Shown here: positions 758 to 33,936 of the stretch, one piece after another
Layout: each line of letters starts with the position of its first letter
Position numbering within the stretch: position 1 is the stretch's first letter
Virus record (IMG/VR): IMGVR_UViG_3300035663_000028
Location: 1-42,036 of that record
Reading direction: 5' to 3' (one strand)
Source: a virus
DNA length: 42,036 bases
Notes under the pieces: generated by a model
Database searches by the model: none
Told to the model about the DNA's origin: nothing
What the model saw: only the letters and a program-made list of their open reading frames with translations
Program-made: the position numbers and the translations under genes

Positions 758-3700
758 ATGAGTTTTCCAAATACTTTTGATGACGATACAACTATACCTT
801 TTGTCAACGATAATATCGTTGAAATTGGCGGAGAAGCTATTAATGCTTCAAGAAATGCTATTTTTAATATTGAACAAAATATTGGATTAAATGCTCAAGG
901 CAGCATGCCCACTATTGCTGCCCGTTTAAATGTATCATTACTGCCAGATGGTAATATTAGACCTTCTGCCATTGCTAGTATGGGTTTAGTTACTTTACCA
1001 ATTGTAGATAGTCAAATTGCAGATTGGGCTGCCATTCCTGAACGAAAATTACAATTAGACCATCGAACACAAGATTTATTTAATTATATTAGAGATTTAT
1101 CAGGTGATGTTAATACTGCTATTGGTTGGATAAATAGTACGGGCATTAAATTAGAGCCTCATTTATTAGGGCAAATTTATCGTCATGAATTAAGCCAAAT
1201 CAATGTGAGTAGCGCTCCAATTAATTTCTTAGATAATAATTTAAGGCTATTACGAGATAATAGTGATTCTTATAAGTTAATTAAAGATATAAATAGTGAA
1301 TTATTAGCTCACCAATGGGCAGACGGTTCACCATTTGGTACTATTAGCAATATCATTACTAATGATGGTTCTACTTTTCCCAATAATTTTGCTCATACAG
1401 CTGGAGGTATATTTATTAATACTTCTAGATTTGCAACTATTCCGCAAACAGCGGATGATTTGCAAGCTTTTGCAGAGTTTATTGATAGTACCAGTATTTT
1501 CTTATTAGGAACTAGATTACAAAACTTATATTCTAATGGTATTTCTCGAGAATCACGATCTACCTCTTTATTAAATGATGGTTATGGTGCTCCGATTATT
1601 CCATCGACTCCAGCTATTGCCTTTTTGAAAAATTTAGGAAATAGTAGTAGCCCAGTTGATGATATTAATAATGGAGATGATATCGTTGAACTATTACCAC
1701 CAACCAGCGTATTATCCAATAATTCTTTTGATCAAAAATTTGCCCTAGTGCAAGTGGGTGATATTATTAGGGTAAATTACGGAACTATTGAAGTTGCTTT
1801 TGTTATTAAAGAAAAAAAATATATCCAAAATGGTGGTAATAAAAGATTTATTATTCGAATTGCTGGTAAAAATATTCAATATGCGCCCAATGCTTCGGTT
1901 AGAATTGATAAACCATTAGTTAATATTAATAAATATGGCGTCTTAGCAGTTTCTGCAGTCAATAGTGGTAATGCTTCTGTTCCGGCTAGTTTAATTACAG
2001 TTAATCCTAGAGGCGCGCAAGCATTAGGATTAGGATTTAATCCAGATCAGTTTGATGCCAGTCATTATATGCTATATTTGGCGTTATTTACTACCGGCTC
2101 TCCTAATGATGGGTATATTATTTTACCACCTATCGATGTGACAGGTAATGCAGGAACGACACCTGGAGCTTATACTTTAAATTCTGTAGTAGAAGCCACT
2201 AATAATGCTTTTAGACGTGCTGGGTTTAATTATCGATTTGTCGCCTTTCAATATCAAGGTGAATTTGGAATTGCTTTAGCAGACTCTTATGGTAATGCTG
2301 GTTTTTCTATTTTAAATGCAGTCGTAAACAGCAATGGAACATTAAATGAAACTGAAACTAACATTGTATTTCCTAATAATGTAGTTAGCATGTTTTCAGA
2401 TGATGGGACTACTGGGCCCGATCCTTTAGGATTTGGACCGACAGGATCCGCAGTCGCCAGTCCTCCATATCAAGCTTCTTATCCTTCGGCTGAAGCTGCA
2501 GTTTTGCCCACGAAATTATTTTTACCATTAAAAAGAAATAATTATTATGTCAATGGTACTGAAAGAGAAAAATTAAACCTAGATATTGACCAAGTACTAG
2601 ATACTTATGGTGATGGTTATTGGCCCGCTACGATTGTGGCTCAAACAATTACTCCAGGGCCATCAGGTTCAGTTAAAACTACTTATCGAGTAGCGTTAGA
2701 TCTTTCAGCCTCTCAATTAAAAATTGGTAAAACTTTAGTCGTTCAATCTCTAGATGGAACAGGAACTTCTCCTAATGATTTTGGTAGATTTATTATTGAG
2801 AATATTTCCTTAAGTTGTTCCCCTTCTAATTATACTGATATCACGGTCTTAGATGCTGTTCATGGATTAGGAACTACTGGGTCTAGCGGATTAGTATTAG
2901 GAGTAGGCGGTAAAGTTGCGCTATATTTCTCGCAAGACTCTATTGCTTTAAATGCGGAGAGTGCTACTGATTTTTCTGAAGTTTCTCCCTTTAAACGATT
3001 TTTTGAAATTTATGTAGATGAAAATGGAAACACTTTCACTCATGAACGAGCTAGATTTAATAGTGGTGGAATTTCTCCGCTTATTATTAATGATAATATT
3101 CCTTTAGTTAATAATTCAGAGTTAATTAAATTAAATTTTGTTAAAGTGTCGCCTAAATTAACAGGGTATCCATACGGATCCATAAATAAAATAACGTTAT
3201 TCATGAATTCTTATGATAACGTTACTGGTAATTATGATGGATATTTAGCCGCTTGGGATGGCAATTTAGCTACGCCAGCAACTCATCGTGGACCTGTAGT
3301 TTCAGGAAAAAGAGGATTAGTTTCTAGATTTTACGATGAAACTTATTTAGATTATATAGATATAGTTTTTGATTTTAATAGTACGGTGTCTTCATTTGCC
3401 GATCAAAAATTAGACATTCAATTATTTCCAAGTTTAGCGCTAAATAGTCAAATTATGACTATTGGCTCCTGTCAGTACAATGATGTTAGTAATGTCATTA
3501 ATTATATTAATGACGATCGACAATTTGGAAATATTTCAGAAAAAGATTTAACTACTTCGGCTTTAAATTATATTGCTGCACCTGAAAGATTATTGCATGG
3601 CAATGGAGTAATTAAAGGTTTTGAGCTACAAAATATTCCAGGGTTAACTAATCCTCGCAGAGGAAATATTTATTTAACAGGTGGAGAACTGTTAGTTAAT

Positions 3701-6700
3701 GGTAAATTCATTCAAAAAAATGATGAAACTGTCATTATTCCAGCAATGCGAGAAGTAACTCCTGGAATTAGCTCCACTTTAAAAATAAACTGGTTAGTCT
3801 GTATTAATTCTTTAGGAGATTATGAAATCTTACCGTTATTAGATCCAGATCCTATTTTAAATACGTCTAGCAATACTAATAGAGCTTTTGTTGGGCAAAA
3901 CTTAGTCAATGGCGGAAGTTATAATTTAAATGGGACTACTTTCTCTAATGTTATTAATAATAGAAAAGATTTAACCTTATTATATATTGCTGCCGCCACT
4001 TCAGTAGCTATTAATCCGCCTACTGTTAGCTTAGTAGTTCATGATATTAGAAAATTTGTCAATGATGGCGATACTATCTTACCATTAAAATTAACTTCAG
4101 CTAATAGTCAAGGTAATTTTAAAAACATTGTGCCAATTTTTAATTGGATTAAATATAATAATGCTTTTAATGGTACCGTTATTGTTAAAGGCGCGAATGT
4201 TAATAATGCAACTGTTGCTGCTGCCACAGAATTACATTTTACTAGTGGAAATGTTACTATAGATGGTCAAAATAATGCAACTATTACTTTTAATTCTGCC
4301 TTAACAGTAGGATCTAATTTAACATTTAAAGATTCGATATTAAATTTAAATGCTGGCATGTTTATTAAAACAAATGCCACTATTACCAATTTAATATTTG
4401 AAGGCTGCACGTTAAACGTTATTTTACCATCTTCTGCACCTAATACTACTGCGCTATTAGATATTAATAATGGAAGTAATATTAAATTTAAAGATTGTAC
4501 TTTTAATGTAACTTGGAATAAAAGTTTGCCAGTTCAATCTTATGGATTGGAAACTACTTTTCCCTGTTTAATTAGAGCGACTAATACGAGTAATTTTATC
4601 GTAGATAATTGTGTGATGTCTGTAGATTATACTACTGCTAGCGTAGGAGTTCCTCCTGGCGGACATATTGTGCTCATAGATAGTGATGATGCAATTATTA
4701 ATAACTGTACTTTTAGTGGAAATACTGATAAAACTTTAACTATTAAAAGCTCTAATAATGTTAAATTTACAAATTGTAGTGTATCATCTACTTATAATCC
4801 CGTAGATGATGGATTTGATGCTACTAATTTGGTTAGTTCAGAAAGTGGTTATGTTTATTGTAGAATGGATAATCCAGTAGATAACATTTTAATTGATAAT
4901 ATTTCTTTTAATTATGTTCCGGCAGGAGATCCAGCTGCAGATACGGATCTAAATATTAGATATCCATTTATTAGTTTTGAATTAGTAGCGTTAAATGCCA
5001 CTTTAAGCAACTTAACCATTAATAATTGTAAATTTAATCATTTAAATACTGGAGCAGTAGTTACTGATATTAGACCAGGTATTGCTATTGTCAATACATA
5101 TTCTGCTTTAGCTGGACCCACATTACCTAATGCCCAACAAGTTAATTTAATTAATGCTAATATTACTAAGAATATTGGTAATAGAAACCAATCTATTATC
5201 ATTACTTCTAGACGCGATAGCGCTGGATTAATGAATTATCCTGGATTAGCGGCTCAAGGATGTAACATTAAAGATAATATTTGCGGAAATATTGGATATT
5301 TTATTTCTAGCGCCGTACAAACAGTTAATTTATCTCCCAACTATACTAGTTTGCCAGATAAATTAACAGGTTTAACTATTGAAAACAATGTCTGTCATTA
5401 TATTTATAATTGTGACGAAGATGGTTACTCTTTCTTAATGTCTAAATTAGTAGGCGGCTCTAGTTCTAATCGTTGCGCGTATCCAAGTGGGTATGTAGAT
5501 ATTAATAAAAATAAGGCCAATTGGATTCATGTCGGTTGTGCTTATGAACAACAAAGCGGGCTAAATATTACTAATAACGTACTTCAAGCATATTCAGAAT
5601 CTTATTTAAATATGTTTGGAGCTAATGAAGGTAATTTTTATGGACCAGTCTCTGGTACTCGTTCTTTTAAGTATGCTATTTTTGTAAGTACTAATAAATA
5701 TAAGATGAATCCAATACAAAGCCCTTCAGAAGGGAATGATACTTCCATTTTAATTTCTGGAAATATTGTTAATCAGGGTTACTGGTATTTATCTAATGGT
5801 GTAGTTAACAATTATACTTATACTAATGGCTATATTTTCTGTCAAGGTTCTAGCACTATTACAGATAATATTTTAAGAGGTGCTGGTGTAGGCAATTTAA
5901 TTCTAGTTGGTGGTTTACGTAATATTATCAAGGGAAATAAAATTTATCGAGATAATATTGATGTTACCTCTTACATTAGATTTGATAATTTTGATACTCC
6001 TAATTGGGATAGTAACCCAGACGGAGAGGGTGCTGGTTCTCAAGGCTTAGTAGTAGATAATTTCTTTGATAAACCAACAATTAATGCTGTCGGAGTAACC
6101 GGATCATTTAACGGATTATCTTTTTTTGGAGCGATAAATATTCCTTCTACTGCGGCACCTGGATGGATTGTAGAAAGAAATAAAAATCAAACAGGAATTG
6201 CCATTGTTCCCTGGACTAATGGTCATATATTATATCATACTACAGGTGGATCTGCTTTTGGACCAGATGGTTATGATGACCTTTATATGAAACCTGCAAA
6301 TAATAATCCTTCAGGAACTTTTACTGGAGAATATCGCTCTAGAGTTTTAAGATTTAGAGATACAGAATCTGTTGGTTTTAGATTATGGGGAGTTCAGGTT
6401 AATTTAGAGGCATTTTTACCAAATGGAGTTCGAGTGTTAGAAGTTTCTTCGGCTATTCGATCTTTTGGCACCCAAGTTGATTATAATCCAGCATCTCCTC
6501 CAGCAGCTACTTCTAATTTTTGGATTAATTTAAGTTCACAAGATATGCAAAATATCGGAGTAGGAACTTTTTCTTTAGATAATTTTAGCACAGTTTCTGA
6601 TAACGATGATGGTGTATTTGAAATTAATAACACTGTCTTTTCTAATGTTACAGGCGGAGATTTTAATTCTAGTAGCTTAGCTCTTCCTTTTGAAATTGAC

Positions 6701-6856
6701 TTAACTAACTATAATGGAAATGATATTTCTAATAGATACATTACTGGCCGAGGAATTGGTATAACTTTATCTTTAGATGCTAGATGGGCAAGAGATTCTA
6801 TTTTTTTTGGTACTGAGTTCTTAATTTCTCCAGTACTTGTTACATATCGATGGTAA
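758..6856 (+). CDS. Giant tail-fibre/tailspike-like protein with right-handed beta-helix region
   Basis: A 2032-aa virion protein. The N-terminal roughly 1150 residues are long mixed beta-type regions with no catalytic motif I recognise. From about residue 1155 to 1725 (about nt 4220-5930) the sequence has the cadence of a pectate-lyase-like parallel beta-helix: repeated short strands with N, I, T, G and stacked asparagines, for example INNCTFSGN and VKFTNCSVSS. The last roughly 250 residues form a separate beta-rich end ending PVLVTYRW. Such beta-helices are known in phage tailspikes and receptor-binding or glycan-degrading proteins. It sits just upstream of the neck/sheath genes. I infer a fibre or spike contacting the host surface; enzymatic activity cannot be judged. 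An unrelated very large baseplate or capsid-decorating protein is the alternative. Confidence 0.7.
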   Translation: MSFPNTFDDDTTIPFVNDNIVEIGGEAINASRNAIFNIEQNIGLNAQGSMPTIAARLNVSLLPDGNIRPSAIASMGLVTLPIVDSQIADWAAIPERKLQLDHRTQDLFNYIRDLSGDVNTAIGWINSTGIKLEPHLLGQIYRHELSQINVSSAPINFLDNNLRLLRDNSDSYKLIKDINSELLAHQWADGSPFGTISNIITNDGSTFPNNFAHTAGGIFINTSRFATIPQTADDLQAFAEFIDSTSIFLLGTRLQNLYSNGISRESRSTSLLNDGYGAPIIPSTPAIAFLKNLGNSSSPVDDINNGDDIVELLPPTSVLSNNSFDQKFALVQVGDIIRVNYGTIEVAFVIKEKKYIQNGGNKRFIIRIAGKNIQYAPNASVRIDKPLVNINKYGVLAVSAVNSGNASVPASLITVNPRGAQALGLGFNPDQFDASHYMLYLALFTTGSPNDGYIILPPIDVTGNAGTTPGAYTLNSVVEATNNAFRRAGFNYRFVAFQYQGEFGIALADSYGNAGFSILNAVVNSNGTLNETETNIVFPNNVVSMFSDDGTTGPDPLGFGPTGSAVASPPYQASYPSAEAAVLPTKLFLPLKRNNYYVNGTEREKLNLDIDQVLDTYGDGYWPATIVAQTITPGPSGSVKTTYRVALDLSASQLKIGKTLVVQSLDGTGTSPNDFGRFIIENISLSCSPSNYTDITVLDAVHGLGTTGSSGLVLGVGGKVALYFSQDSIALNAESATDFSEVSPFKRFFEIYVDENGNTFTHERARFNSGGISPLIINDNIPLVNNSELIKLNFVKVSPKLTGYPYGSINKITLFMNSYDNVTGNYDGYLAAWDGNLATPATHRGPVVSGKRGLVSRFYDETYLDYIDIVFDFNSTVSSFADQKLDIQLFPSLALNSQIMTIGSCQYNDVSNVINYINDDRQFGNISEKDLTTSALNYIAAPERLLHGNGVIKGFELQNIPGLTNPRRGNIYLTGGELLVNGKFIQKNDETVIIPAMREVTPGISSTLKINWLVCINSLGDYEILPLLDPDPILNTSSNTNRAFVGQNLVNGGSYNLNGTTFSNVINNRKDLTLLYIAAATSVAINPPTVSLVVHDIRKFVNDGDTILPLKLTSANSQGNFKNIVPIFNWIKYNNAFNGTVIVKGANVNNATVAAATELHFTSGNVTIDGQNNATITFNSALTVGSNLTFKDSILNLNAGMFIKTNATITNLIFEGCTLNVILPSSAPNTTALLDINNGSNIKFKDCTFNVTWNKSLPVQSYGLETTFPCLIRATNTSNFIVDNCVMSVDYTTASVGVPPGGHIVLIDSDDAIINNCTFSGNTDKTLTIKSSNNVKFTNCSVSSTYNPVDDGFDATNLVSSESGYVYCRMDNPVDNILIDNISFNYVPAGDPAADTDLNIRYPFISFELVALNATLSNLTINNCKFNHLNTGAVVTDIRPGIAIVNTYSALAGPTLPNAQQVNLINANITKNIGNRNQSIIITSRRDSAGLMNYPGLAAQGCNIKDNICGNIGYFISSAVQTVNLSPNYTSLPDKLTGLTIENNVCHYIYNCDEDGYSFLMSKLVGGSSSNRCAYPSGYVDINKNKANWIHVGCAYEQQSGLNITNNVLQAYSESYLNMFGANEGNFYGPVSGTRSFKYAIFVSTNKYKMNPIQSPSEGNDTSILISGNIVNQGYWYLSNGVVNNYTYTNGYIFCQGSSTITDNILRGAGVGNLILVGGLRNIIKGNKIYRDNIDVTSYIRFDNFDTPNWDSNPDGEGAGSQGLVVDNFFDKPTINAVGVTGSFNGLSFFGAINIPSTAAPGWIVERNKNQTGIAIVPWTNGHILYHTTGGSAFGPDGYDDLYMKPANNNPSGTFTGEYRSRVLRFRDTESVGFRLWGVQVNLEAFLPNGVRVLEVSSAIRSFGTQVDYNPASPPAATSNFWINLSSQDMQNIGVGTFSLDNFSTVSDNDDGVFEINNTVFSNVTGGDFNSSSLALPFEIDLTNYNGNDISNRYITGRGIGITLSLDARWARDSIFFGTEFLISPVLVTYRW

Positions 6857-6859
6857 TCT

Positions 6860-7681
6860 ATGGGCGCAAATAATTTCTTTAAAAGCAATTTAATGTCTTT
6901 ACATAACGTGGTACAAGCCTCCATGTTAGTGTATCCTAAAGAAGTTATTATTGCTACGTTAAGAGATTATTTCTCTAAAGATGATTATTATCATTATGCC
7001 AAAGATCAATGGGGTTTTGCTAACACTATCGATCATACTGATTTACCTCCAGGGGCCGATATTCCAACCTCTCATAATCAATATGGAGCCAATGAAGAGG
7101 GATTAAGCACTCGGGTGTTTATTGGAGAAAATTATCGATATAATGGAATTTATTATCCAGCTATTTTAGTCAAAAGCGGCGGCAGTACTTATGTGCCTAT
7201 CTCTATTAATAGAGAACAGGAAGCTGTACAATATGAAGATATTGTATATGAAGATGGATATGGTAATCAAACTGTAGTTTCTAAACCTAAAGCTTTTGTG
7301 ACAGCTGGTGCCTGGGAAGGCAGTATTATTATTGATATTTTATCTAGAAGCTTGCGAGCAAGAGATGATTTATCAGAAGCTATTGCTATGTGTTTTACTG
7401 AATTTTATTTTGATAGTTTATATGATATTGGAATTATTGTAAAACCTCCAATTATTGGAGGCGCCAGCGAAACTGATGATAGAAATGATAAGCTTTTTCG
7501 CCAAAGTATTACGTTAAATGTTAGAACTGAATGGCGAAGAGAGATTCCAGTAGGCAATTTAATTGATACTATCTTTTTTACCGTTATTTTTGAAGATATT
7601 AGCAAGCCCGCTAATCCAGTACCTGCTAATTTAACTATTAATACCGAAGTTAGTTTAACTGATTTGTTAATCAATCTATGA
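6860..7681 (+). CDS. Virion structural protein upstream of sheath (tail-terminator/neck candidate)
   Basis: A 273-aa soluble protein starting 3 nt after the preceding stop. It has no signal peptide or membrane segment. The N-terminal half is aromatic- and acid-rich; residues about 165-235 read as alternating strands and helices. I do not recognise a family from sequence alone. Its length is close to that of the T4 tail-sheath stabiliser gp15 (272 aa), and its place just before the sheath gene is where neck or tail-terminator genes often lie, so a tail-completion role is a reasonable guess from position and size only. Its stop overlaps the start of the next gene (ATGA at 7678-7681), so the downstream endonuclease may be translated by coupling. 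Confidence 0.5.
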   Translation: MGANNFFKSNLMSLHNVVQASMLVYPKEVIIATLRDYFSKDDYYHYAKDQWGFANTIDHTDLPPGADIPTSHNQYGANEEGLSTRVFIGENYRYNGIYYPAILVKSGGSTYVPISINREQEAVQYEDIVYEDGYGNQTVVSKPKAFVTAGAWEGSIIIDILSRSLRARDDLSEAIAMCFTEFYFDSLYDIGIIVKPPIIGGASETDDRNDKLFRQSITLNVRTEWRREIPVGNLIDTIFFTVIFEDISKPANPVPANLTINTEVSLTDLLINL

Positions 7682-8355
7682 AAATTTGCACCAAATGCCA
7701 GATAGAAAAATCTTTATCTGATTTTGGATTAAGAAAAAGAAAGTTAAAGTCAGGAATTAAAGAATATTATTCTATTTACTGCAAAACTTGCATTAACCAA
7801 ACGGCTAAAAATTTTAGAAAACTTCATCCTTATCAAACAAGCGAATCTATCAAACTATCTAAACAAAAATGGGAAGAAAATAATAAAGAAGCTAGAAAAC
7901 AATATCAAAAAAACTATTATCTTCTTCACAAGGAAGATTTTCAAAAACGCGCTAATAATCAACAATATAAAGAAAACAAACGCAAATATCATCAACAAAG
8001 ACGACAAGATCCAATTTTTAGAATAAAAGAGAATATTTCTAATGCTATTTACAAGGCATTAGTGAAAGGTAAAACATCTAAAGCTGGAAATAGTATCCTT
8101 CAGTTTTTAGGATATTCTATCCAGGATTTAAAAAGTCATTTAGAAAGTTTGTTTACTGATAATTTTAATTGGGATAATTATGGCGTTGTTTGGCATATTG
8201 ATCATATTATTCCACATAGTAATTTTTCTTATCTGTCGATGACAGATCCATCTTTTACGCAATGTTGGGCCTTAGCAAATTTAAGACCGTTAGCTGCCGC
8301 TCAAAATATGAGAGATGGAAGTACTCGAGTCAGACATTTAAAGAAGAATATATGA
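7678..8355 (+). CDS. HNH homing-type endonuclease
   Basis: A 225-aa basic protein with an N-terminal zinc-binding pair of CxxC motifs (C4/C7 and C35/C38), a long lysine/glutamine-rich helical linker, and a C-terminal HNH core: DH at 175-176 in WHIDHIIPHS, N201 in the LANLRPL segment and N210. This is the architecture of free-standing phage HNH endonucleases that nick or cut DNA and spread their own gene. Zinc ligands and HNH residues all appear intact, so it is probably active. It overlaps the upstream gene by 4 nt (ATGA) and ends 46 nt before the sheath gene. Its C-terminal half is clearly related to the HNH protein at 11472-12203 (shared HLES, NWDN, IDHIIP, SM, WAL-NLRPL and RHK elements), so the two are paralogues or independent arrivals of one family. 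Confidence 0.93.
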   Translation: MKICTKCQIEKSLSDFGLRKRKLKSGIKEYYSIYCKTCINQTAKNFRKLHPYQTSESIKLSKQKWEENNKEARKQYQKNYYLLHKEDFQKRANNQQYKENKRKYHQQRRQDPIFRIKENISNAIYKALVKGKTSKAGNSILQFLGYSIQDLKSHLESLFTDNFNWDNYGVVWHIDHIIPHSNFSYLSMTDPSFTQCWALANLRPLAAAQNMRDGSTRVRHLKKNI

Positions 8356-8401: not shown

Positions 8402-11400
8402 ATGGCTAACATTCCAGGCGCAACAAATGTCCTACCCGGAGTTTTTACAGACGTAATTACTCAATCCCGTGGCGTCTCCGTTCCTGGTGGTTCTCGTATA
8501 ACTGCTATGATTGGAGAGGGCTCAACAGATGAGACTTTAGTATCACAAGCGGTAGGTGGTGGGCAAGACGGCCTTAACCCTAGCTATACTGGAACAACTG
8601 GTAGAGATGGTAGACACTTTCAATTATCAAGTTTTCCATTAATTTCTAATCGTACTACTTTATTTAAAAATGGAATTCCATTAAGAGGTTTAGAATCAAC
8701 TATTGATACTAATCCATTTAGCAATTCTTTTGATTACCGAATTGATATTACTACTGGCCAAATAGAATTGCAACGCGCTCATTTAGTTGACCAAGGTGGT
8801 TCTTTATGGACCGCCCTTTCTACCAATGTGGGGTTAGGATCAGTTAATAATTTAACTTTAGTAGATCCTAATGCACAACCAGAAAACTGGACGATTCGTT
8901 GTATCAAAGTTCAACGTGATGCGTTAAATAATCCGATTGGTGGAACCGCCTCTTTCTTAGCTTTTGGCTCTATTTCGGGAGCAAAATTAGATGCTAACGG
9001 CAATCCTATTGTTTGGATTGCTAATAATAATGTAGTGAGCAATGGTGTGATTAGCTTCTCTATTTCGGAAACTATGGTAGGACCCAATGCAGTATCTCCT
9101 TTTAGAGAGGGAGATGGATTCTTAGTAGTGGTAGATAGTGGTGTGTTAGTTAGAAATGATTCCTTAACAGCTAATTATATTGCTACGGCCAATCTAAATG
9201 ATCCTATTTTATTGCAAGGTTTAGGTGATGTAGTTACCCGTCATGGATTACCCAGTTTAACTAATAATTTATCGTTAGGCGCCCAATTAGCTTTTGCGAA
9301 TAATGCTCCGGCGTTATTAACAGTGCAAGCAGCACCGGCTCTACCACGTAGAACTTCTTACGTTTTAGATCAATCAGTAAATGCTTTATCTCCAGACCAA
9401 GATGATTTTATTTTCCCATTACCAGTAGGCGTAGTTCCAGATTTTAATTCAGAAATTCATTTCTTTGTTAAAAACAACGCTACCAATGTCGAAACGCAAT
9501 TATTGCCTAATAAGTTAACTTATTATACCTTAGATACGGCAGGCAATCCTACTACTAGCTCCTTTATTTTTGACAATACTCCTGCCCCTGGCGGATATTC
9601 ATATTTCTATACCGTCAAAGAAGGCTTAGAAGCGATGAGCTTTGGAGAAGATGGTTATATTGGTCGCAATTTAGCTTTCTTTAATCAAGGTGAGTTTAGC
9701 TCTGCCTCTCAAGTCTTTGATGCGAGCTATGTAGGTAAAGCTTTAAAGATTATTGATTCAGTTAACTCTGCCAATATTGGGGTGTTCCGAGTTACCGCTG
9801 TTAATAATGGTAAATTATATGTGGTAGCAGATGGTAATACCTTCCCGCCATCTACTTTAACTGCCAGCCCCACTTTCTTGTCTGATTTTGTTAATGAATC
9901 AAGCGTAGGTTTTAAAGTAATTAATCCTGTTACTGGATTAGAAGTAGTAGGCGGTTCTGGTACAAATGGAGTTATTGTTACCTCTGGAGCTTCTACAGGT
10001 ACTGCTACTTTACGTAGTACCACTGTAGCCTTTACTGCTATTAGCGGTATTACTAATTATCGATTACAGATAAACGGATCTACTATTTCTACAGATGCAT
10101 TACCAGTAGGTAATGATGGTCTGTATGATATTACGTCAGCCGCTACATTTAGCATTAATGCTGCCACTAATGCTAGCCCCATTGCTATTACTACTACTGC
10201 AAATCATAATTTAACAACAGGTAAAACGGTAACTATTACTGGTGTAGTAGGTAATACGGCAGCTAATGGTACCTTTGTCATTACTGTTACTGGGTTGAAT
10301 TCATTTACTCTGAACGGTTCAACAGGTAATGGTGCCTATACTAGCGGTGGAACAGTATTCCCACACGTAATTACTATTAAAAAAGCCATTGTTAATGAAA
10401 ATAATCTAGAGTTTATTGTTCAAGATCCTAGCGCTAATAGTAATTATATTGTGTTAAATAAAAATATCGTTCCCAATGGTAATGGTTTACGCGTTACTAT
10501 TGTCGACGCTAGAGATGCAACTTTCTTTGATGCGGGCTGGATTAATGCCTTAGAATCATTAGAAGCAGTAGAGTGCGATATTTTGGTACCTTTACCAAAA
10601 CAAACTATTTCTATCATCTTCCAAAATGCCTTAAGTCATTGTTTAGCTATGAGTAATATTCGTAACAAAAAAGAACGAGTCTTATTTATCGGAGCTATTA
10701 ATGGATTAACCCCAGATAATTTAACGGGAGCACAATCTGCCGCCGTAGAAGATATCGGCATCTTAGAAGGTATTCAAGGAGAAACTGTCACTGATATTTT
10801 GTCAGGTAATATTGAAGACTTAGCTAATTATTCAGTACCTAATGCTTTCGGTAATACCTTCCGAGCAGTTTATTTCTATCCAGACCAAATTGTGGTCCAA
10901 GCCGGAACAGAAAATGTCTTAATTGATGGTTTCTATTTAGCTGCCGCTGCTGCTGGATATGAATCGGCCGATGTAAGATTGGAAAATCCATTAACTAATA
11001 AAGTTTTAAGCGGATTTACCATCTTAAGAAATAAACAATTCTCTCCACAAACATTAGAAGCTTTAGCTACTGCCGGTGTTACTACTTTACAACCTGTGGC
11101 TGGTGGTGGTCGAGTAGTTTGGGGTATCACCACGACTCAAAGTGGCTTCCCTGAAGAGCAAGAAATCTCTATCGTCTTTATTAGAGACCGAGTAGCTAAG
11201 ACTTTAAGAGCAGGATTCCAAGGATTTATTGGATTAGCAGAGACTCCAAATACTGGAGCTATCTTAAATACTCGTGGAGTAATCTTACTCAACTCGTTAG
11301 TGTCACAAGGATTAATTACTCAATATAAGGACTTATCGGTGCAGAGAGACGAGGTTGATCCGCGTCAGTGGAATATCTCGGTTAGAGTACAACCGACATA

Positions 11401-11446
11401 TCCCGTTAACTTCATCTACATCCGCGTCAGCCTCGGTCAACTATAA
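8402..11446 (+). CDS. Contractile tail sheath protein
   Basis: A 1014-aa protein with the features of myovirus sheath subunits: an N-terminal segment with LPGVFTDVI and a conserved C-terminal domain with the family's late signature (DRVAKTLRAGFQGFIG, the NTRGVILLNSL helix, and a last strand ending NFIYIRVSLGQL) that forms the inner layer around the tube. It is longer than T4 gp18 (659 aa), the extra length lying in the middle as outward-facing insertions. One is an E1_FCCH-like beta domain at about residues 586-653 (nt 10157-10360). A strong GGAG site (8391-8394) precedes ATG 8402 by 7 nt, as expected for a heavily made protein. Endonuclease genes lie on both sides, and its first and last roughly 100-200 nt are GC-richer than the body. 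It would contract during infection to drive the tube into the cell. Confidence 0.93.
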   Translation: MANIPGATNVLPGVFTDVITQSRGVSVPGGSRITAMIGEGSTDETLVSQAVGGGQDGLNPSYTGTTGRDGRHFQLSSFPLISNRTTLFKNGIPLRGLESTIDTNPFSNSFDYRIDITTGQIELQRAHLVDQGGSLWTALSTNVGLGSVNNLTLVDPNAQPENWTIRCIKVQRDALNNPIGGTASFLAFGSISGAKLDANGNPIVWIANNNVVSNGVISFSISETMVGPNAVSPFREGDGFLVVVDSGVLVRNDSLTANYIATANLNDPILLQGLGDVVTRHGLPSLTNNLSLGAQLAFANNAPALLTVQAAPALPRRTSYVLDQSVNALSPDQDDFIFPLPVGVVPDFNSEIHFFVKNNATNVETQLLPNKLTYYTLDTAGNPTTSSFIFDNTPAPGGYSYFYTVKEGLEAMSFGEDGYIGRNLAFFNQGEFSSASQVFDASYVGKALKIIDSVNSANIGVFRVTAVNNGKLYVVADGNTFPPSTLTASPTFLSDFVNESSVGFKVINPVTGLEVVGGSGTNGVIVTSGASTGTATLRSTTVAFTAISGITNYRLQINGSTISTDALPVGNDGLYDITSAATFSINAATNASPIAITTTANHNLTTGKTVTITGVVGNTAANGTFVITVTGLNSFTLNGSTGNGAYTSGGTVFPHVITIKKAIVNENNLEFIVQDPSANSNYIVLNKNIVPNGNGLRVTIVDARDATFFDAGWINALESLEAVECDILVPLPKQTISIIFQNALSHCLAMSNIRNKKERVLFIGAINGLTPDNLTGAQSAAVEDIGILEGIQGETVTDILSGNIEDLANYSVPNAFGNTFRAVYFYPDQIVVQAGTENVLIDGFYLAAAAAGYESADVRLENPLTNKVLSGFTILRNKQFSPQTLEALATAGVTTLQPVAGGGRVVWGITTTQSGFPEEQEISIVFIRDRVAKTLRAGFQGFIGLAETPNTGAILNTRGVILLNSLVSQGLITQYKDLSVQRDEVDPRQWNISVRVQPTYPVNFIYIRVSLGQL
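10157..10360 (+). other. E1_FCCH-like beta domain inserted in tail sheath
   Basis: Sheath residues about 586-653 have the recognisable pattern of the domain family catalogued as the ubiquitin-activating enzyme E1 FCCH domain: PIAITTTANHNLTTG, a VTITGV strand, NTAANGTFVITV, the SFTL strand and the closing GGTVF. In phages this fold turns up as an add-on in surface-exposed structural proteins and has nothing to do with ubiquitin there. It sits between the sheath's central domains and its conserved C-terminal core, so it probably projects from the outside of the tail. This is a pattern match by eye, not a profile score. Confidence 0.65.
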
Positions 11447-11471: not shown

Positions 11472-12203
11472 ATGGCTACCCAATTAACTCCATCACAATT
11501 AGATAAAATACAAGAGCTCTACCATCAAGGTTTGGGCTCTCGTAAAATTGCCCTAATAATTGGAGTTAACAGAAGTACTATTCAAAGAAGTTATCAACAA
11601 CTTCAGTTAAATAGTGCGGCTAAAAAATTACCTCGATTAGCTTCTCAATATACGGAAAAATATTGCAAAATTTGTGGCGATCTTAAAAAGATAGAGTTTT
11701 TTAGAAAACGATGCAATCAGAAAACACAACGAATTTCTTTTGAAAGCTATTGTAAAGAGTGCGAATATAGAAGAAATAACGAGAGATTAAAAAGAGCAGC
11801 TAAAATATTAAGACAGACTAATCCTAATTTTGTTATTAGAAAAAGTCTGTCTTATTTTATTTGGAAATCATTGGCCAAATCTAATTCCAGCAAACAAGAT
11901 CAGAGTTGCTTGCAATTTCTTCCATATGCCATAGAGAAACTTAGATTACATTTAGAGTCACAGTTTGAACCCTGGATGAACTGGGATAATCATGGCAGTT
12001 ATCGTAAACATACCTGGAACGATGATGATAGTAGTACTTGGAGTTGGCAAATAGATCATATTATTCCACAATCAGATTTGCCGTATACTAGTATGGCAGA
12101 AGAAAATTTTCACAAAAGTTGGGCGTTAAATAATTTGAGACCTTTGTCAGCTAAGCAAAATTTATTAGATGGAGCCAGGAAAATAAGGCATAAAATTATA
12201 TAA
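11472..12203 (+). CDS. HNH homing-type endonuclease with N-terminal helix-turn-helix
   Basis: A 243-aa protein in three parts: an N-terminal resolvase-like helix-turn-helix at about residues 6-45 (SRKIALIIGVNRSTIQRSYQ), a zinc module with CxxC pairs C65/C68 and C94/C97, and a C-terminal HNH nuclease with D195-H196 in WQIDHIIPQS, N221 in the NNLRPL segment and N230. The helix-turn-helix probably helps pick the target site. It lies between the sheath and tube genes, 25 nt after the sheath stop and 30 nt before the tube start, with only a weak ribosome-binding site (GTAGAG), unlike its structural neighbours. Its nuclease half is related to the protein at 7678-8355. All catalytic residues seem present, so I expect activity on a tail-gene locus of a competing phage. 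Confidence 0.93.
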   Translation: MATQLTPSQLDKIQELYHQGLGSRKIALIIGVNRSTIQRSYQQLQLNSAAKKLPRLASQYTEKYCKICGDLKKIEFFRKRCNQKTQRISFESYCKECEYRRNNERLKRAAKILRQTNPNFVIRKSLSYFIWKSLAKSNSSKQDQSCLQFLPYAIEKLRLHLESQFEPWMNWDNHGSYRKHTWNDDDSSTWSWQIDHIIPQSDLPYTSMAEENFHKSWALNNLRPLSAKQNLLDGARKIRHKII

Positions 12204-12935: not shown

Positions 12936-13820
12936 GTGAAGACCAAGTTTTTTGAACAAGCTCCACTGAGACACCAAAATAAATATAATTACTCGCAAGT
13001 CAATTATGTCGATCATAAAACTAAAGTAATTATTATTTGCACTCAACATGGGGAGTTTTCACAGACTCCCCATGCGCATTTAAAGGGGCAAGGATGTCCA
13101 GTTTGTGGTCGATTAAAAACTAGACAAGCTAAAAAATTAACCACTGCACATTTTATTACCCGAGCTCAACAAAAGCATGGAAATAAATACTCTTATTTGA
13201 AAAGTAATTATCAAGGCCAAGATCAATTAATCGAAATTATTTGTGCTACTCATGGAAGCTTTTTCCAGCGAGCAGCGGATCATTGGAGTGGGCACGGTTG
13301 CAATCAATGTGCCATGCAACAACGACATCAACAATTATCTTTAACTACTGAACAATTTATTAACAAATGTAAAATAATACATGGAGATAAATACAATTAT
13401 CATTTAGTTAATTATTTAAAACAAGACGAAATGGTGGAAATAGTTTGTCCGTATCATGGTAATTTCTGGCAACGAGCAGTTTATCATCTACAGGGTTGTG
13501 ATTGCCCTAAGTGTGCGTTAAATGGCATTTCTGAAGGAGAAACTATCTGGTTAAACGGTTTAGATATTAAGGAGCGTCAAGTTACTTTAGTGATTGACAA
13601 TAAAAAAATTAAAGTAGATGGTTACGATAGAGATAATAATACAATTTATGAATATTATGGAAATTATTGGCATGGTAATCCTCAAGTTTTTGAGCCAGAA
13701 GATATGAATAAATCAGTCGGATTAACTTTTGGGGAATTATATCAAAAAACATTAGATCGGGAACGATTAATAAAAAAGGCGGGATTTAATTTAATAATAA
13801 AATGGGAAACGGATATATAG
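12936..13820 (+). CDS. Homing-type endonuclease: three zinc-finger repeats plus EDxHD/Vsr-like nuclease region
   Basis: A 294-aa protein made of three similar zinc-finger units at residues about 4-58, 71-125 and 140-193. Each carries HGNKY-like helix residues, a CxxH pair and a CxxC pair (C35/H38/C54/C57, C103/H106/C122/C125, C171/H174/C190/C193), followed by a C-terminal nuclease-like region with D228, E239 and H246 in the KVDGYD and YEYYGNYWHGNP segments. This matches phage and bacterial proteins (DUF723-type repeats) whose C-terminal part resembles very-short-patch-repair and EDxHD homing nucleases such as I-Bth0305I. The zinc fingers would bind the target DNA. The start is GTG 12936, 15 nt after the tube stop, with only a weak upstream site, so reinitiation is plausible. 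It is the third probable mobile nuclease beside the sheath/tube genes. Confidence 0.85.
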   Translation: MKTKFFEQAPLRHQNKYNYSQVNYVDHKTKVIIICTQHGEFSQTPHAHLKGQGCPVCGRLKTRQAKKLTTAHFITRAQQKHGNKYSYLKSNYQGQDQLIEIICATHGSFFQRAADHWSGHGCNQCAMQQRHQQLSLTTEQFINKCKIIHGDKYNYHLVNYLKQDEMVEIVCPYHGNFWQRAVYHLQGCDCPKCALNGISEGETIWLNGLDIKERQVTLVIDNKKIKVDGYDRDNNTIYEYYGNYWHGNPQVFEPEDMNKSVGLTFGELYQKTLDRERLIKKAGFNLIIKWETDI

Positions 13821-13836
13821 ATAATTAGGAGAAATT

Positions 13837-14511
13837 ATGCCCAAATATGATAGCCCATTAGGTTCTAAAAATATTAATGCCCCCTCGTTAAGAGAGTTTG
13901 ATGTGTCGGATGAGAGTGAGATGCAGCCCATTATGAGGAACCAAGGGCCTGGATTACATGGATCTCAGCCGCCAATTAATTTAAATGCGGCTTATGAATT
14001 TCAACAGAAATTAAATCGTCAGCCAACCTCTTTTCAAGATGACATGCAATTAGAGAGAGAGATTAAAGAGGCCAAAGTAGCGAAAATAACTGGCAAAGAA
14101 CGATTAAATGAAGGGGCCAGACGTCGAATTGAGATGTTAGTCGGCATGACACGCTCTACTCGGGAAGTAGATTTAGAGGGCAATAAATTCTTATTGCAAA
14201 CTTTACGATCTCGGGAGATGAGAGAAGCAATTATGGCGGCTTCTGAATATGACAATACGGTACAATCACCTTTTGAGGTGAGACGGCAGTTATTGGCTCG
14301 TTCTTTGGTGCAAGTTGCTGGAATTGAGGTGGGACAATTTTTAGGAACGGATGCCTTGGAAGCGAGGTTAGCCTTAGTAGATGATTTAGATGAAGCTCCA
14401 TTAAATAGATTATATTCAGAATATTTATCTTTAGTTCAAGATTCTCGAGAAAAGTTTGCTATCAAGACTCCGGAAGAAGCTAAGGAAGTGGTAGAAGACT
14501 TAAAAAAATAA
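13837..14511 (+). CDS. Tail assembly chaperone, short (gpG-like) form
   Basis: A 224-aa soluble, charged, mostly helical protein directly upstream of the tape measure gene, where most long-tailed phages encode the chaperone pair that coats the tape measure during tail assembly (lambda gpG/gpGT). An AGGAG site (13827-13831) precedes ATG 13837. The coding sequence ends LKK followed by tandem stops TAATAA, and the last two sense codons are part of an in-frame A_AAA_AAA slippery heptamer (14502-14508). Ribosomes slipping back by one there would read on to 14861 and make a 341-aa fusion. I see no sequence similarity strong enough to name it without context; position and the frameshift signal make the assignment. 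Confidence 0.85.
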   Translation: MPKYDSPLGSKNINAPSLREFDVSDESEMQPIMRNQGPGLHGSQPPINLNAAYEFQQKLNRQPTSFQDDMQLEREIKEAKVAKITGKERLNEGARRRIEMLVGMTRSTREVDLEGNKFLLQTLRSREMREAIMAASEYDNTVQSPFEVRRQLLARSLVQVAGIEVGQFLGTDALEARLALVDDLDEAPLNRLYSEYLSLVQDSREKFAIKTPEEAKEVVEDLKK

Positions 14512-14605
14512 TAAATGAACCGGAACATAGATTTCATTGGTATTTATGTAAGTTATACCAAACTGAGGTCGATGATCCTAAAATTTTAAATATGGATCCG
14601 GTTCA
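14502..14605 (+). promoter_or_regulatory. Programmed -1 ribosomal frameshift site (slippery heptamer plus stem-loop)
   Basis: A_AAA_AAA at 14502-14508 is in frame with the upstream gene (TTA AAA AAA TAA). After a 7-nt spacer (14509-14515) comes a perfect 9-bp stem: TGAACCGGA at 14516-14524 pairs with TCCGGTTCA at 14597-14605. Inside its 72-nt loop is a 7-bp hairpin, TTGGTAT at 14537-14543 with ATACCAA at 14555-14561. The spacer length is within the 5-9 nt typical of -1 frameshift stimulators. The downstream frame is open from the slip site to 14859. Confidence 0.9.
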
Positions 14606-14861
14606 AAAAATATGGATGTATAATAATTGGATAGCTGATCAAAATGAGCAGGCCGAACTTGCTAAAAATCACGCATATCTAGTAGCATCCTTTTGGAATC
14701 CTGAAGCGGTGCAAAAGATCGTGGGTCAAGACAATGTTCATAAATCCACGGATGAAGAATATGAAGAATCTTTACGAATTGTGCAAGACCAAAGCTTTAA
14801 ATTAATGGAAGAGACTGTGCCCAAACGTAAACGACGCAAACGAGGCACTTTACAATCATAA
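14508..14861 (+). CDS. Tail assembly chaperone frameshift extension (gpT-like)
   Basis: This -1 frame segment has no stop from the slip site to the TAA at 14859-14861 and adds 117 residues to the 224-aa upstream protein, giving a 341-aa fusion. The first in-frame ATG (14592) has no ribosome-binding site, and the codons before it are coding-like (the segment HRFHWYLCKLYQTEVDDP), so translation as a frameshift product is more likely than independent initiation. The extension is helical, W- and Q-rich in the middle (IWMYNNWIADQNEQAELAKN) and ends in a basic cluster (KRKRRKRG). In lambda the T part recruits the tube subunit while the G part binds the tape measure; the same split of labour is inferred here. 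It ends 9 nt before the tape measure start. Confidence 0.85.
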   Translation: MINEPEHRFHWYLCKLYQTEVDDPKILNMDPVQKIWMYNNWIADQNEQAELAKNHAYLVASFWNPEAVQKIVGQDNVHKSTDEEYEESLRIVQDQSFKLMEETVPKRKRRKRGTLQS

Positions 14862-14870
14862 GGGTAACAG

Positions 14871-17036
14871 ATGGCAGATGATGATATTACAGGCTCCGGT
14901 CAAGCGGCTCAAAATACTGCTAATGCATTAGAGGCTTTGGCAAATGGTGCTAATAATTCTGGAGAACGCTTAAATGGATTAGGGGCCATCGCTGCCGGCG
15001 CTAAAGACATATTTTCAAATTTTAGCAAAACACTTGAATCATATAATATGTCTTTAAAAGACTCTGGAGCTTTCACTAATCAGCAAAGTGTGGCTTTTGC
15101 TGCGCTAGCTACTACCGCTTTAGAGACTAGAAAAGCATTTGACAATTTAACTGGAGTAGATTATAGTAATATTTCTGGTTTTACGGAACAATTTTCTACC
15201 TTAAAAAAAATTATTGGTGATTCTCCAGTTTATAATACTACAGAAAAACAAATGTCAGCTATTTCTAAATCTTTAGTTAGTTTAGGGGTGCCGATGGATA
15301 AAATCCAAGAAGCCGCTAAAGGAGGTTTAAGTGGTTTAATAGCATATGGTGCTGGTTTTTTACAAAGCGCGGATAATGCCTTAAGATTACAATCTGCGAT
15401 AATTCAATTAGCTGGTAAAACCGGATCCTTAAATGAAATTTTTAATGTCGCGGGAGAAGATTTAGGAAATGTTAATTCTTTATTAGCTCAGCAAAATAAG
15501 ATTATTGGAGACAGCATTAGTGCCACTGGATTAAATGAACAAAAAATAGAATCTTATTATGCTATGTTAGGAGGAGTTCGGGGAGCTTTAAATGAGAATG
15601 TGAAAGCTACCGAACAATCCGAAAAAAATACCAATATGTTGACGGCGAGTATTAAATTAGCGATGGGTACTGGTCAAAGATATGAAGAGGTAATTTCAGA
15701 TTTACGTGTCGCTTTTAGAGAATATGGCATTGTGGGAGAAAACGCTTTAAAATTAAATGCTCGCTTTAGTGAGTTAAGTAATAAATTCGGGATTGAATTA
15801 GATGATGTGCGTAGTGGTTTAATGGGGGCAGCTGGTGCTTTTAAAATCTTTGCTGATGCAGGTGATGCCGCTAGTAAAATGTCAGAAAATCTAGCTGGTA
15901 TTATGAATGATTATGTCCAAAGCTTGAAAGGAACTGGCATGTCTGGTTTACAGGCGGTTAAAGTAGTTCAAGATATGACTAGTTCAGTCGCTGGATTAAA
16001 CGTAGCTCAAAAAGCTTTCTTATCTGCCCAAACAGGTGGACCGGGCGGATTAATGGGGGCTTTTCAAATTGAGAAAATGCTAAAAAGCGGCGATATTGAA
16101 GGAGTGTTCAACAAGGTTCAACAAACTATGCAAAAACAATTTGGAAAAATTGTTACTTTAGATGAGGCTAGTACCAGTCAAGCGGCAGCTTCTCAATTGC
16201 AAAAACAAATGTTATTATTACAAAAAGGGCCTTTAGGCGGAATGGTTAAGAGCGACCAAGATGCGTATCGATTATTAGAAGCGATGCGAAATAAGCAAGA
16301 AGGTCGTATTACGTCGGATCAGGCAGCATCTCCATTACGAGACGATATTGTTCAACAATCTATGGATCGTGGTACTGCTATTCAAGAAAAATCATATACT
16401 ACATTAACAGAAGCTAATGTTAATTTACAAGCTATTAGAAGAGCAGCGGATGTCTTAGCGCTAGATACGATACAAAAAGGAATGACTGCGGGTACGGGAA
16501 GCGCTAACTTTTTAGGAACAGATACTAATCCTCAACAAATGATGAGAGCTGGCCTCAAAGAGTTTATGTCTAACGTATCACAACAAGGCGGAGAAGCTAA
16601 TAGAGATTATAAAGCTCAACTGGCAGGTGAGATGCCAATAAAGGAAGAAGCTGCTGGAGCAGCGGCGGCAACTAGTATAAATAATATGGATGGGTTTACG
16701 GATCAAATTGTCAATACCTTTGATTCTATGAAAGATTTATTTGGGCAACTATTTGATCAAAAAACAGAAAATCCCACTGTTGCTTATAATAACTTAGCAA
16801 TGACTACGCAACAAGCTATTGAAGCTCAACCCACTCGTACTTCGGGACAAATGGTAAGAGAAGCTCCTAGAATGGTTCCCTCACCAACGACAGCCGGTCC
16901 GGCTACTACCCAGACTATGGTTCCGGATGTTAGGGTTAATAAATCAGGAGATATGGGTAGAGTTACCGTACAAGTAGATGTCAAGGTCATAGAAGATGGT
17001 AATCAATCAATAGCAATAACTCCAGCAGCTCGATAA
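14871..17036 (+). CDS. Tape measure protein
   Basis: A 721-aa, mostly alpha-helical protein rich in A, G, S, Q and N, placed directly after the frameshifted chaperones, the classic spot for the tape measure that sets tail length. Helical stretches alternate with flexible glycine segments; residues about 340-400 are A/G/M-rich (DAGDAASKMSENLAGIMNDY), and the C-terminal roughly 100 residues are P/T-rich and then a beta-type end (GRVTVQVDVKVIEDG). I see no peptidase or lysozyme motif. At the usual rule of about 0.15 nm per residue it would specify a tail of roughly 110 nm, moderate next to the oversized baseplate genes. A short AAGGG site lies before ATG 14871. Confidence 0.82.
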   Translation: MADDDITGSGQAAQNTANALEALANGANNSGERLNGLGAIAAGAKDIFSNFSKTLESYNMSLKDSGAFTNQQSVAFAALATTALETRKAFDNLTGVDYSNISGFTEQFSTLKKIIGDSPVYNTTEKQMSAISKSLVSLGVPMDKIQEAAKGGLSGLIAYGAGFLQSADNALRLQSAIIQLAGKTGSLNEIFNVAGEDLGNVNSLLAQQNKIIGDSISATGLNEQKIESYYAMLGGVRGALNENVKATEQSEKNTNMLTASIKLAMGTGQRYEEVISDLRVAFREYGIVGENALKLNARFSELSNKFGIELDDVRSGLMGAAGAFKIFADAGDAASKMSENLAGIMNDYVQSLKGTGMSGLQAVKVVQDMTSSVAGLNVAQKAFLSAQTGGPGGLMGAFQIEKMLKSGDIEGVFNKVQQTMQKQFGKIVTLDEASTSQAAASQLQKQMLLLQKGPLGGMVKSDQDAYRLLEAMRNKQEGRITSDQAASPLRDDIVQQSMDRGTAIQEKSYTTLTEANVNLQAIRRAADVLALDTIQKGMTAGTGSANFLGTDTNPQQMMRAGLKEFMSNVSQQGGEANRDYKAQLAGEMPIKEEAAGAAAATSINNMDGFTDQIVNTFDSMKDLFGQLFDQKTENPTVAYNNLAMTTQQAIEAQPTRTSGQMVREAPRMVPSPTTAGPATTQTMVPDVRVNKSGDMGRVTVQVDVKVIEDGNQSIAITPAAR

Positions 17037-32800: not shown

Positions 32801-33936
32801 CCTCTGCAGCTGCTAGTGTAGGTGATTTAGTGGTGGTGATGTTATTTAATTATAATAACCTTCGACAAGCGCCTACTCGAATAGTAGGAACTACAGTAGA
32901 TCAATTAGTTAATCCAGGAATTATTACTTTTAGCGGAACTACTTTAAGTAAAGCAGAGAATGTAGTATTTACAGCGACTAATACTGGAGTAAAATTAAAT
33001 GTATCAGAAGCTTTACGTAAAGCATTAAAATTATCATCGATAGCTGTTATTCCTAGTAATATAAAATTAGCAAAAATTTTAAAAGTAGAGAAGGTGGTAA
33101 CAGCTAGTAATACCGATGACACTGTGATTCAAGTTCTACATACTTATGATACTACTAATAGTATTATTCAAAATAATTTATTTTTTAATACTGATATGGT
33201 ATCGGATCCTACTTTACAAGCTTTAGAGTTTAAGTTGCCTAATACCACAAATAATACTTTGACCGGTATTACTAATAATCTTCCTACTTTAGGCGATAAA
33301 ATAAGAATCACTTTTTATTTTAGTACAGACAATGATTCAGAGAATTTATCTTATACTCGTAATGGAACACTATATACTAATAAAAAATTTGCTTTAATAA
33401 ACAAAATTTTTGTTTCTAGTGGTTTCAAAAATTCTCTGGCAACTCGTTTAAATGTTAGCTGTTTTAATCAGCCGGGATTAGGAGCCAGATATAAGGTTTT
33501 TTATGATTATTTAGCCCCAAAACAGAATGAACGGATAGTAATAAGATATAATTATAATAAGTTAATCTCTGATGTTACTTTTGCCGTTGAAAATTCTCGA
33601 CCAGTTAATGCAGATGTTTTAGTTAAAGCTGCCAGAGAAACATTATTAGACTTAACTATTAATGTGGTAATTGATCCGGCTCAACTTAGCTCACAAACTA
33701 CCATTTTACAAAACTTAAGAGATAGTTTAGTTACCACTTTAACAACTACTGAGTTAGGCCAAATTGTTGATCAGCCTACTATTATAAATGTAGCTCAAGC
33801 AACTAACGGTATTGCCAGAGCCAGAATACTGTATTTTAATAAAGCTGGTGGTATAGGTCAAGTATTAAAAGTGCAAGCTCAAGAAGATGAATTCTTTTCT
33901 CCTAATAATATCATCATTAACACCGAAACAAGATAA
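29821..33936 (+). CDS. Baseplate J/gp6-like wedge protein with very large central insertion
   Basis: A 1371-aa protein. Residues 1-250 follow the J family: TKPGTVSRDLFIEGPASQLS near the start, the LGSDLDKLAKNFAI-type helix, A-GAAILTFAS, I-INRGTIITASNGF, then TAGTTGNIGKYSLS and the GGTDQETDAAFRNRILATFS helix. The family's C-terminal domain returns at about 1245-1371 (VLVKAARETLLDLTINVVID, T-ELGQIVDQPTIINVAQATNG). About 1000 residues between them are beta-rich add-ons, including two copies of a module with R-L-x-DG-x-E-x-W at 766-833 and 961-1018 and several NG-rich strands. The family forms the dimeric arms of the wedge (Mu gpJ, T4 gp6). The stop and next ATG overlap by one base (33936). Confidence 0.85.
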   Translation: MVTIRSSNEIILSLIDFFKLAQPDLDTKPGTVSRDLFIEGPASQLSLLYDELSGVSNKQSLRLVIGSDLDKLAKNFAIVRRQATPATGAAILTFASINAPIPINRGTIITASNGFSYSVTTGTVVTPTAINFYKSVATKFRDQLDFAGISDTLAVQVTVTATSAGTTGNIGKYSLSRANIPGVSNVTNVNSFTGGTDQETDAAFRNRILATFSGSSVGTALGYLNVALSVDGVGDAAVIEPGNSLMTRDGTEVNVAADGTRTIVSEGSGGKVDVIVLGSNLVENSESFIFRDKSNNNDPTSSKNNVVLGQIPEDVNKTINRKRIDDIRNGTLPAQPVDTILQVSGSVSGSNFTPKSVDSLGRVSGNYEIIKDTGVYSGSPFGFDTFHWISNKISLFSEDRLKGQFNGQDSTTFTDVLEIPQAQQTVLITNENSTVTSDRSIIQLLHTPATNVTRVFNVNTGERYIITNQNLDQTGATNTSGRIQISGNTLPSTSDALQVDYSWIVNFDQYSDYDGLVNTKNSRATNNSIDWGLSANIRKEPIVFTQNLGNNFYTGNTSLPISSVISANKSTVVDGYVELITTGTFANRLSIAINNLLETVNSVDSVKFKNNNVELYHTSQGNNSFSVTTAVVGIQIVYTLNIILPTDTLAVNGDKVTVTINSVDVFNSSVTQGSSSGTQITIPSNLVNSSATSLILETTYLTNVADLFSSAITSLSASRTGNGFTLLNNNGFNNFSPVNIARRENQIVQKNLSNQFYVDLSLGALDFNLAPEQVLSVVRLRDGYELWSSNHLGTIATGINGNYQLILSGFNDPVISDRVLVIYYANDIRRFQPFSFSNNLIKSRVLNLTVDPGTNRLQVPINTFTTQFDVSFTVKDSNSDIVWFTITDGELINNNDGTAFLTSTAVNMSTIPDLLHKKVKLVVPNLLGGPTNVNNDGVYDIINYNLTTNTLTITQTLSKLTYDQVSIIRLLDGQEVWNYSGTIDVVNNKLLLPTSAAASVGDLVVVMLFNYNNLRQAPTRIVGTTVDQLVNPGIITFSGTTLSKAENVVFTATNTGVKLNVSEALRKALKLSSIAVIPSNIKLAKILKVEKVVTASNTDDTVIQVLHTYDTTNSIIQNNLFFNTDMVSDPTLQALEFKLPNTTNNTLTGITNNLPTLGDKIRITFYFSTDNDSENLSYTRNGTLYTNKKFALINKIFVSSGFKNSLATRLNVSCFNQPGLGARYKVFYDYLAPKQNERIVIRYNYNKLISDVTFAVENSRPVNADVLVKAARETLLDLTINVVIDPAQLSSQTTILQNLRDSLVTTLTTTELGQIVDQPTIINVAQATNGIARARILYFNKAGGIGQVLKVQAQEDEFFSPNNIIINTETR
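32116..32319 (+). repeat. Beta-type module copy 1 within J-like wedge protein
   Basis: Residues 766-833: a strand with VLSVVRLRDGYELW (W787), then a GTI turn, L-ILSGFNDPVISDRVLVIY. A second copy lies at residues 961-1018 of the same protein and a third, weaker one at about 825-885 of the next protein. Shared skeleton: R-x2-DG/D-x-ELW, GTI about 5-9 residues later, then L-LSG-N-P-x3-D-V-V-Y or its variant. Seen by aligning by eye; not a known named domain to me. Confidence 0.6.
32701..32874 (+). repeat. Beta-type module copy 2 within J-like wedge protein
   Basis: Residues 961-1018: DQVSIIRLLDGQEVW (W977), YSGTIDVVNNKLLLP, VGDLVVVMLFNY. It keeps the R-L-x-DG-x-E-x-W and GTI features of copy 1 but the later SG-N-P turn is replaced by a TSAAAS turn. 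It lies in the large insertion of the J-like protein. Confidence 0.55.

Follow-up and report, generated by a model that had tools for sequence, protein, structure and literature searches.

Programmed -1 frameshifting in the tail assembly chaperone genes of phages is well known, as are slippery heptamers made of A runs, stimulatory Shine-Dalgarno sequences and stimulators that fold as three-way junctions, such as that of IS911. In phage lambda, tail assembly requires the short chaperone and its frameshifted fusion in a ratio of about 30:1 (PMC5009743). At known -1 sites the stimulatory Shine-Dalgarno sequence lies 9-14 nt upstream of the slippery site and the 3' helix begins 6-9 nt downstream of it (PMC5009743). 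The locus described here is of the same general kind and was found in an IMG/VR virus fragment of 42,036 nt, the whole of which is referred to below as the window; all features of the signal lie on its plus strand.

The zero-frame ORF (ORF A, 13837-14511) encodes a tail assembly chaperone, the short product of 224 aa. It ends in the heptamer A_AAA_AAA (14502-14508), composed of the A from a TTA codon and then AAA AAA, and is closed by tandem zero-frame stops, TAA TAA (14509-14514). The -1 frame (ORF B, 14508-14861) provides a further 117 aa and a stop codon (14859-14861), and would form the C-terminal extension of a fusion chaperone of 224 + 117 = 341 aa. The original prediction for this stretch had placed A_AAA_AAA directly before TAATAA and had described a -1 frame open to 14861 that gives a 341-aa fusion; the former was exact to the nucleotide, and the latter was borne out by the lengths of the two ORFs.

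Homologues were collected from IMG/VR by scans that used each ORF as well as alignments. This yielded 95 unique junctions, on contigs as long as 480 kb, from which 71 representatives less than 75% identical were drawn. Some of the scan patterns span the junction peptide and could bias the collection, while others (such as LAKNHAY or the ORF A patterns) do not. The signal is carried by relatives of giant phages that form a large and mostly uncultured group. No relatives or prophage forms were found in the GTDB genomes, which fits a lytic life style, and tblastn searches of the named phages in INPHARED with both ORFs gave no match. The codon-shuffle nulls used throughout keep the protein fixed and re-choose synonymous codons by the genes' own usage; they take sequences as independent, and kinship inflates the counts.

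The identity of the two ORFs was sought through a fold search combined with profiles, which led to Bacillus phage G. Comparison of profiles with hhalign matched ORF A to phage G gp181, a 'tail assembly chaperone' (probability 96.7%, E 3.5e-10), and ORF B to the frameshifted part of gp182 (E 9e-7); the phage G record (JN638751) presents gp182 as a joined tail assembly chaperone and places the tape measure gene after it. Of 31 ORF B homologues, 15 also matched phrog_25000 (tail assembly chaperone), with a best value of 1.3e-4, and the predicted model of ORF B resembles Herelleviridae-type chaperones. The structure model of ORF A was poor (pLDDT 61), and its fold matches were left unused except for one close homologue. 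Sheath, tube-like and baseplate genes are present in the same window, a tail-tube-like gene lies just upstream in 91 of the 95 loci, and the same next gene follows in 87; no gene in the window could be named by profile as a tape measure gene. Judged by the homology of both parts and by the tail-module setting, the tail-chaperone label given in the original prediction holds.

Other features of the module were noted in passing. An HNH/treble-clef endonuclease gene (12936-13820) lies between the tail-tube and chaperone genes; it is matched in only four of the 95 related loci, which gives it the appearance of a mobile insertion. Two endonuclease VII-like genes (7678-8355 and 11472-12203; phrog_1035, E about 1e-9) lie on either side of the sheath gene and are matched in 19 of 95 related loci. 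The sheath protein itself (8402-11446, 1014 aa) has, before its C-terminal sheath region, an extra domain (residues 596-652) that matches Pfam E1_FCCH (E 3.4e-8). The window also contains two very large ORFs, 758-6856 (2032 aa), which has no PHROG match, and 33936-41081 (2381 aa).

ORF B could in principle be initiated independently as a protein in its own right, for instance by ribosomes re-initiating at the in-frame ATG at 14592, and two related database entries, A0A6J5RW74 (227 aa) and A0A6J5RQE7 (89 aa), are indeed listed separately as uncharacterised proteins. However, from the slip site onwards the -1 frame stays open and shows selection at the protein level, without a start of its own. 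Within ORF B codons 6-15 the third positions vary most (entropy 1.28, against 0.63 and 0.44), and protein-level conservation begins about 25 codons before ATG 14592, with E4, P5, F9 and L13 invariant. A B-frame start codon upstream of codon 4 is absent in 93 of the 95 relatives and present in two, and in phage G the homologue is recorded as one joined product. A separately initiated ORF B protein is almost certainly not the explanation of this locus.

The heptamer is in frame in all 95 junctions. In 86 of them the zero-frame stop comes next, and in the other nine one codon intervenes. Homologues that keep the proteins but have lost both heptamer and stem had been named as evidence that would speak against frameshifting; none has lost the heptamer, and among the 95 IMG/VR junctions there was no locus with an ORF B match but without it.

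Downstream of the heptamer, the original prediction had proposed a perfect 9-bp stem after a spacer of 7 nt. This stem, termed P1, is formed by tgaaccgga (14516-14524) and tccggttca (14597-14605), with 72 nt between the arms, and the spacer is 14509-14515; both claims proved correct. The chance of such a helix had been put at about one in a thousand or less. It is indeed improbable, but the figure was slightly optimistic: a perfect helix of at least 9 bp starting 5-9 nt past the heptamer was obtained in 132 of 20,000 dinucleotide shuffles (0.66%), or about 1 in 150. The folding energy of the stretch is -27.9 kcal/mol (z = -4.3). The deciding evidence for the signal is conservation, rather than these single-sequence odds.

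The conserved core of P1 comprises 7 bp, GAACCGG (14517-14523) with CCGGTTC (14598-14604), and the two end pairs of the 9-bp helix are found in just 52 and 40 of 82 homologues. The core is paired at all seven positions in 72 of the 82, against a mean of 0.28 and a maximum of 3 in 1000 synonymous-codon shuffles; structure 6-9 nt from the heptamer is therefore kept beyond protein constraint. P1 is present in 56 of the 71 representatives, starts 7-8 nt downstream of the heptamer across homologues, and has its core arms separated by 74 or 77 nt only. Codon choice within the arms is correspondingly skewed: proline is encoded by CCG in 57 of 69 cases in the 5' arm and 61 of 67 in the 3' arm, compared with 80 of 875 elsewhere in both ORFs (71 representatives), and the valine of the 3' arm is GTT in 75 of 75 (background 45%). 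When sequences were folded singly with RNAfold, the mean probability of P1 was 0.90, versus 0.16 in codon-shuffled sequences; RNAalifold did not choose P1 on the alignment of 82 sequences, whereas per-sequence folding and the codon nulls do favour it. In five of six large genomes the P1 pattern occurs once, at the chaperone junction. H-type pseudoknots and other far partners up to about 270 nt downstream were examined with the arms and the second constrained block (below) fixed, and none rivals P1.

If the frameshift is real, the arms might still have another role, as a DNA or RNA binding site or through protein constraint, and not form a stimulatory stem. Both arms contain CCGG and sit in conserved protein motifs (EPEHR and MDPV), and covariation is limited, in that most arms are invariant and true double changes amount to three pairs in four cells. 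Nevertheless, protein-preserving shuffles almost never produce the stem, and the changes that do occur maintain pairing. Full compensatory double changes, which the original prediction had proposed as a check, restore pairing in L067 (GAATCGG/CCGATTC) and L098 (GAACCTG/CAGGTTC), and G-U wobbles keep P1 paired in eight further homologues. The covariation score exceeded that of 497 of 500 shuffles, which is a weak test alone as the sequences are related. In addition, in lineages that lack the 3' arm, a new local sequence often takes its place as partner of the 5' arm. It is very unlikely that the arms serve only some other role.

The local partners were analysed by assigning the 95 junctions to classes with a helix energy cut-off of -8 kcal/mol. 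The 5' arm had a long-range partner only in 68 junctions, both long-range and local partners in 11, a local partner only in nine and neither in seven; of the 16 junctions that lack P1, nine thus have a local partner. The 5' arm reads GAACCAG(A) or GAGCCAG(A) in L080, L126, L279 and L300 and finds its partner, (T)CTGGTTC, about 26 nt away, and in L085 and L317 the partner is nearer still. The resulting fold is a compact hairpin at the same spacing from the heptamer as P1. On the protein tree, the long-range state requires seven changes. These swaps of partner imply that the constant feature is a helix starting 7-8 nt after the heptamer, and not its 3' partner. The seven junctions with neither a strong P1 nor a local partner are a point against the frameshift reading. 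The junctions in which either partner is available, and in which two folds would compete, are L116, L137, L142, L111, L100, L098, L065, L022, L028, L007 and L200.

The 72 nt enclosed by P1 had been described as a large loop holding a second hairpin. The length is right, but the picture of an open loop was changed by folding against nulls. P1 was predicted to close exactly two hairpins in 52 of 62 sequences with consensus arms, compared with 34.9 when interior codons were shuffled and the arms fixed, and the mean folding energy of the consensus-arm sequences was -26.3 kcal/mol, against -23.4 kcal/mol for the fixed-arm null. The longer inner arm, P2 (14526-14574), had 6.0 expected base pairs versus 2.4 in the null (62 homologues). 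The shorter, P3 (14576-14596), in which 14576-14578 pairs with 14594-14596 stacked under P1, had 4.36 versus 2.89, and is weak in the window's own sequence. The second hairpin of the original prediction (14537-14543 with 14555-14561) is real here as the tip of P2; in other homologues its individual pairs are retained rather loosely (64% of cells), and the inner arms in general vary in their exact pairs between homologues. The excess of two-hairpin folds, the lower energy and the additional P2 and P3 pairs suggest that the loop is most likely a three-way junction, with P1 probably closing P2 and P3 in the manner of IS911.

A second synonymously constrained block was detected in ORF B by synonymous-site conservation at 14656-14684 (gaa ctt gct aaa aat cac gca tat cta; consensus GAACTAGCTAAAAATCACGCATATCTATTA). 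Its most constrained codons are GCA (81 of 94), CAC (77 of 94) and GCT (71 of 94), and the window and six large genomes (350-480 kb) each contain one exact copy. A promoter or repeated motif was rejected on the single exact copy per genome and on near matches in the window that are no more frequent than chance, and an overlapping gene was rejected on the stops that the consensus has in the other forward frame and all reverse frames. No recurrent or convincing pairing partner for the block was found in ORF A or ORF B, and the block may or may not belong to the frameshift signal. It is possible, though unlikely, that the 5' arm is a shared strand for which the near and far partners compete in the 11 homologues that have both, that such an RNA switch could set or regulate the frameshift ratio, and that the second block, about 150 nt downstream, is a further part of the same control.

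On the other side of the heptamer there is a conserved element that the original prediction missed. This putative Shine-Dalgarno-like stimulator (14482-14489) lies 12 nt before the heptamer; its consensus in relatives is AAGGAGGT, and the window's own copy, AAGGAAGT, is degenerate and weaker. Of 74 glutamate codons at -8, 69 are GAG, which has a background share of 30%, and AGGAGGT is found in 44 of 84 relatives, against 5.8 in the codon-shuffled null (maximum 13). To judge from codon choice, the site is under selection among relatives. By position, its 12-nt distance and the 7-8 nt spacing of the downstream helix both match those of known -1 sites.

These spacings bear on transcriptional slippage, in which RNA polymerase would add or drop an A in the A7 run and the edited mRNA would be translated normally to the fusion. 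Runs of A can provoke polymerase slippage, and A7 is under-represented in all frames of E. coli genes, perhaps owing to it (PMC4066793). The run, however, is exactly seven A's in all 95 homologous junctions and never longer, and the stem (7-8 nt) and Shine-Dalgarno-like site (12 nt) lie at distances typical of ribosomal stimulators (PMC5009743) and are under selection; polymerase slippage would require neither. Transcriptional slippage is most unlikely here.

A -1 programmed ribosomal frameshift with stimulation from both sides, yielding the 224-aa tail assembly chaperone and the 341-aa fusion, very probably operates at this locus. The frameshift with a downstream stimulator that had been predicted is supported by the 95 junctions, the codon-aware nulls, the compensatory changes and the homology to phage G. 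Ribosomes ending ORF A would meet A_AAA_AAA in their P and A sites, where the Shine-Dalgarno-like sequence behind and the three-way-junction RNA starting 7-8 nt ahead would cause a pause. A minority would slip back by one base as Lys-tRNA re-pairs AAA on AAA, avoid the stop next to the heptamer and decode a further 117 codons, and the chaperone and fusion would then be made at the fixed ratio needed for tail assembly. Slippage itself, its efficiency, the mechanism of pausing and the need for the ratio are steps that we infer. In E. coli, which may not be the host here, A_AAA_AAA is less slippery than A_AAA_AAG (PMC5009743).

The kind of frameshift is known, but the variant of the stimulator and its exact conservation appear to be new. 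Rfam gave no match up to E = 1 in 13800-15000 and none window-wide at gathering scores, and the open-access literature yielded no account of this stimulator in the chaperone genes of phages. Two adjoining ORFs that are separate in related database entries are, on this reading, one recoded gene. The 95 junctions and 71 representatives expose the slippery site, the Shine-Dalgarno-like site and the stimulator through codon choice, and include natural compensatory mutants and cases in which the long-range helix is replaced by a compact hairpin at the same spacing. Whether the position of a stimulator or its shape is the target of selection is directly testable with these homologues.

The arrangement resembles the G/GT genes of lambda and other long-tailed phages in its short chaperone and predicted low-level -1 fusion, in an X_XXY_YYZ-type site and probably in its place after the tail-tube gene and ahead of further tail genes (PMC5009743). 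It differs in its heptamer, in having an upstream Shine-Dalgarno-like site and a downstream fold under codon-level selection, and in belonging to a lineage without a tblastn match in INPHARED. Gp181/gp182 of Bacillus phage G, also a large phage, is homologous in both frames, and an A-run heptamer likewise ends its ORF A at the stop. The phage G slip site (L330:4783-4792) is A_AAA_AAC TAG, however, with a different last heptamer base, and the GAACCGG/CCGGTTC element is absent, with other hairpins downstream. The phage G site has AAAGGA upstream and a very strong hairpin starting about 40 nt downstream. IS911 orfA/orfB (A_AAA_AAG) shares the A-run heptamer, the upstream Shine-Dalgarno-like site and a helix closing two hairpins, the last being predicted here. 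IS911 encodes a transposase, whereas in the present locus the stop directly follows the slippery site, the 3' arm of P1 is far off (74 or 77 nt) and the inner arms are less conserved. An IS911/IS3-family element was rejected as the source of the locus, as the genes of the locus are those of a tail chaperone and not of a transposase, and the likeness is one of mechanism only. The dnaX gene of E. coli (A_AAA_AAG, 11-bp hairpin) is similar in its heptamer, its Shine-Dalgarno sequence at 9-14 nt and its 3' helix at 6-9 nt; it differs in its compact hairpin, its efficiency of about 50% and in making a shorter product by frameshifting, and the lineages here that use a local hairpin are closer to it.
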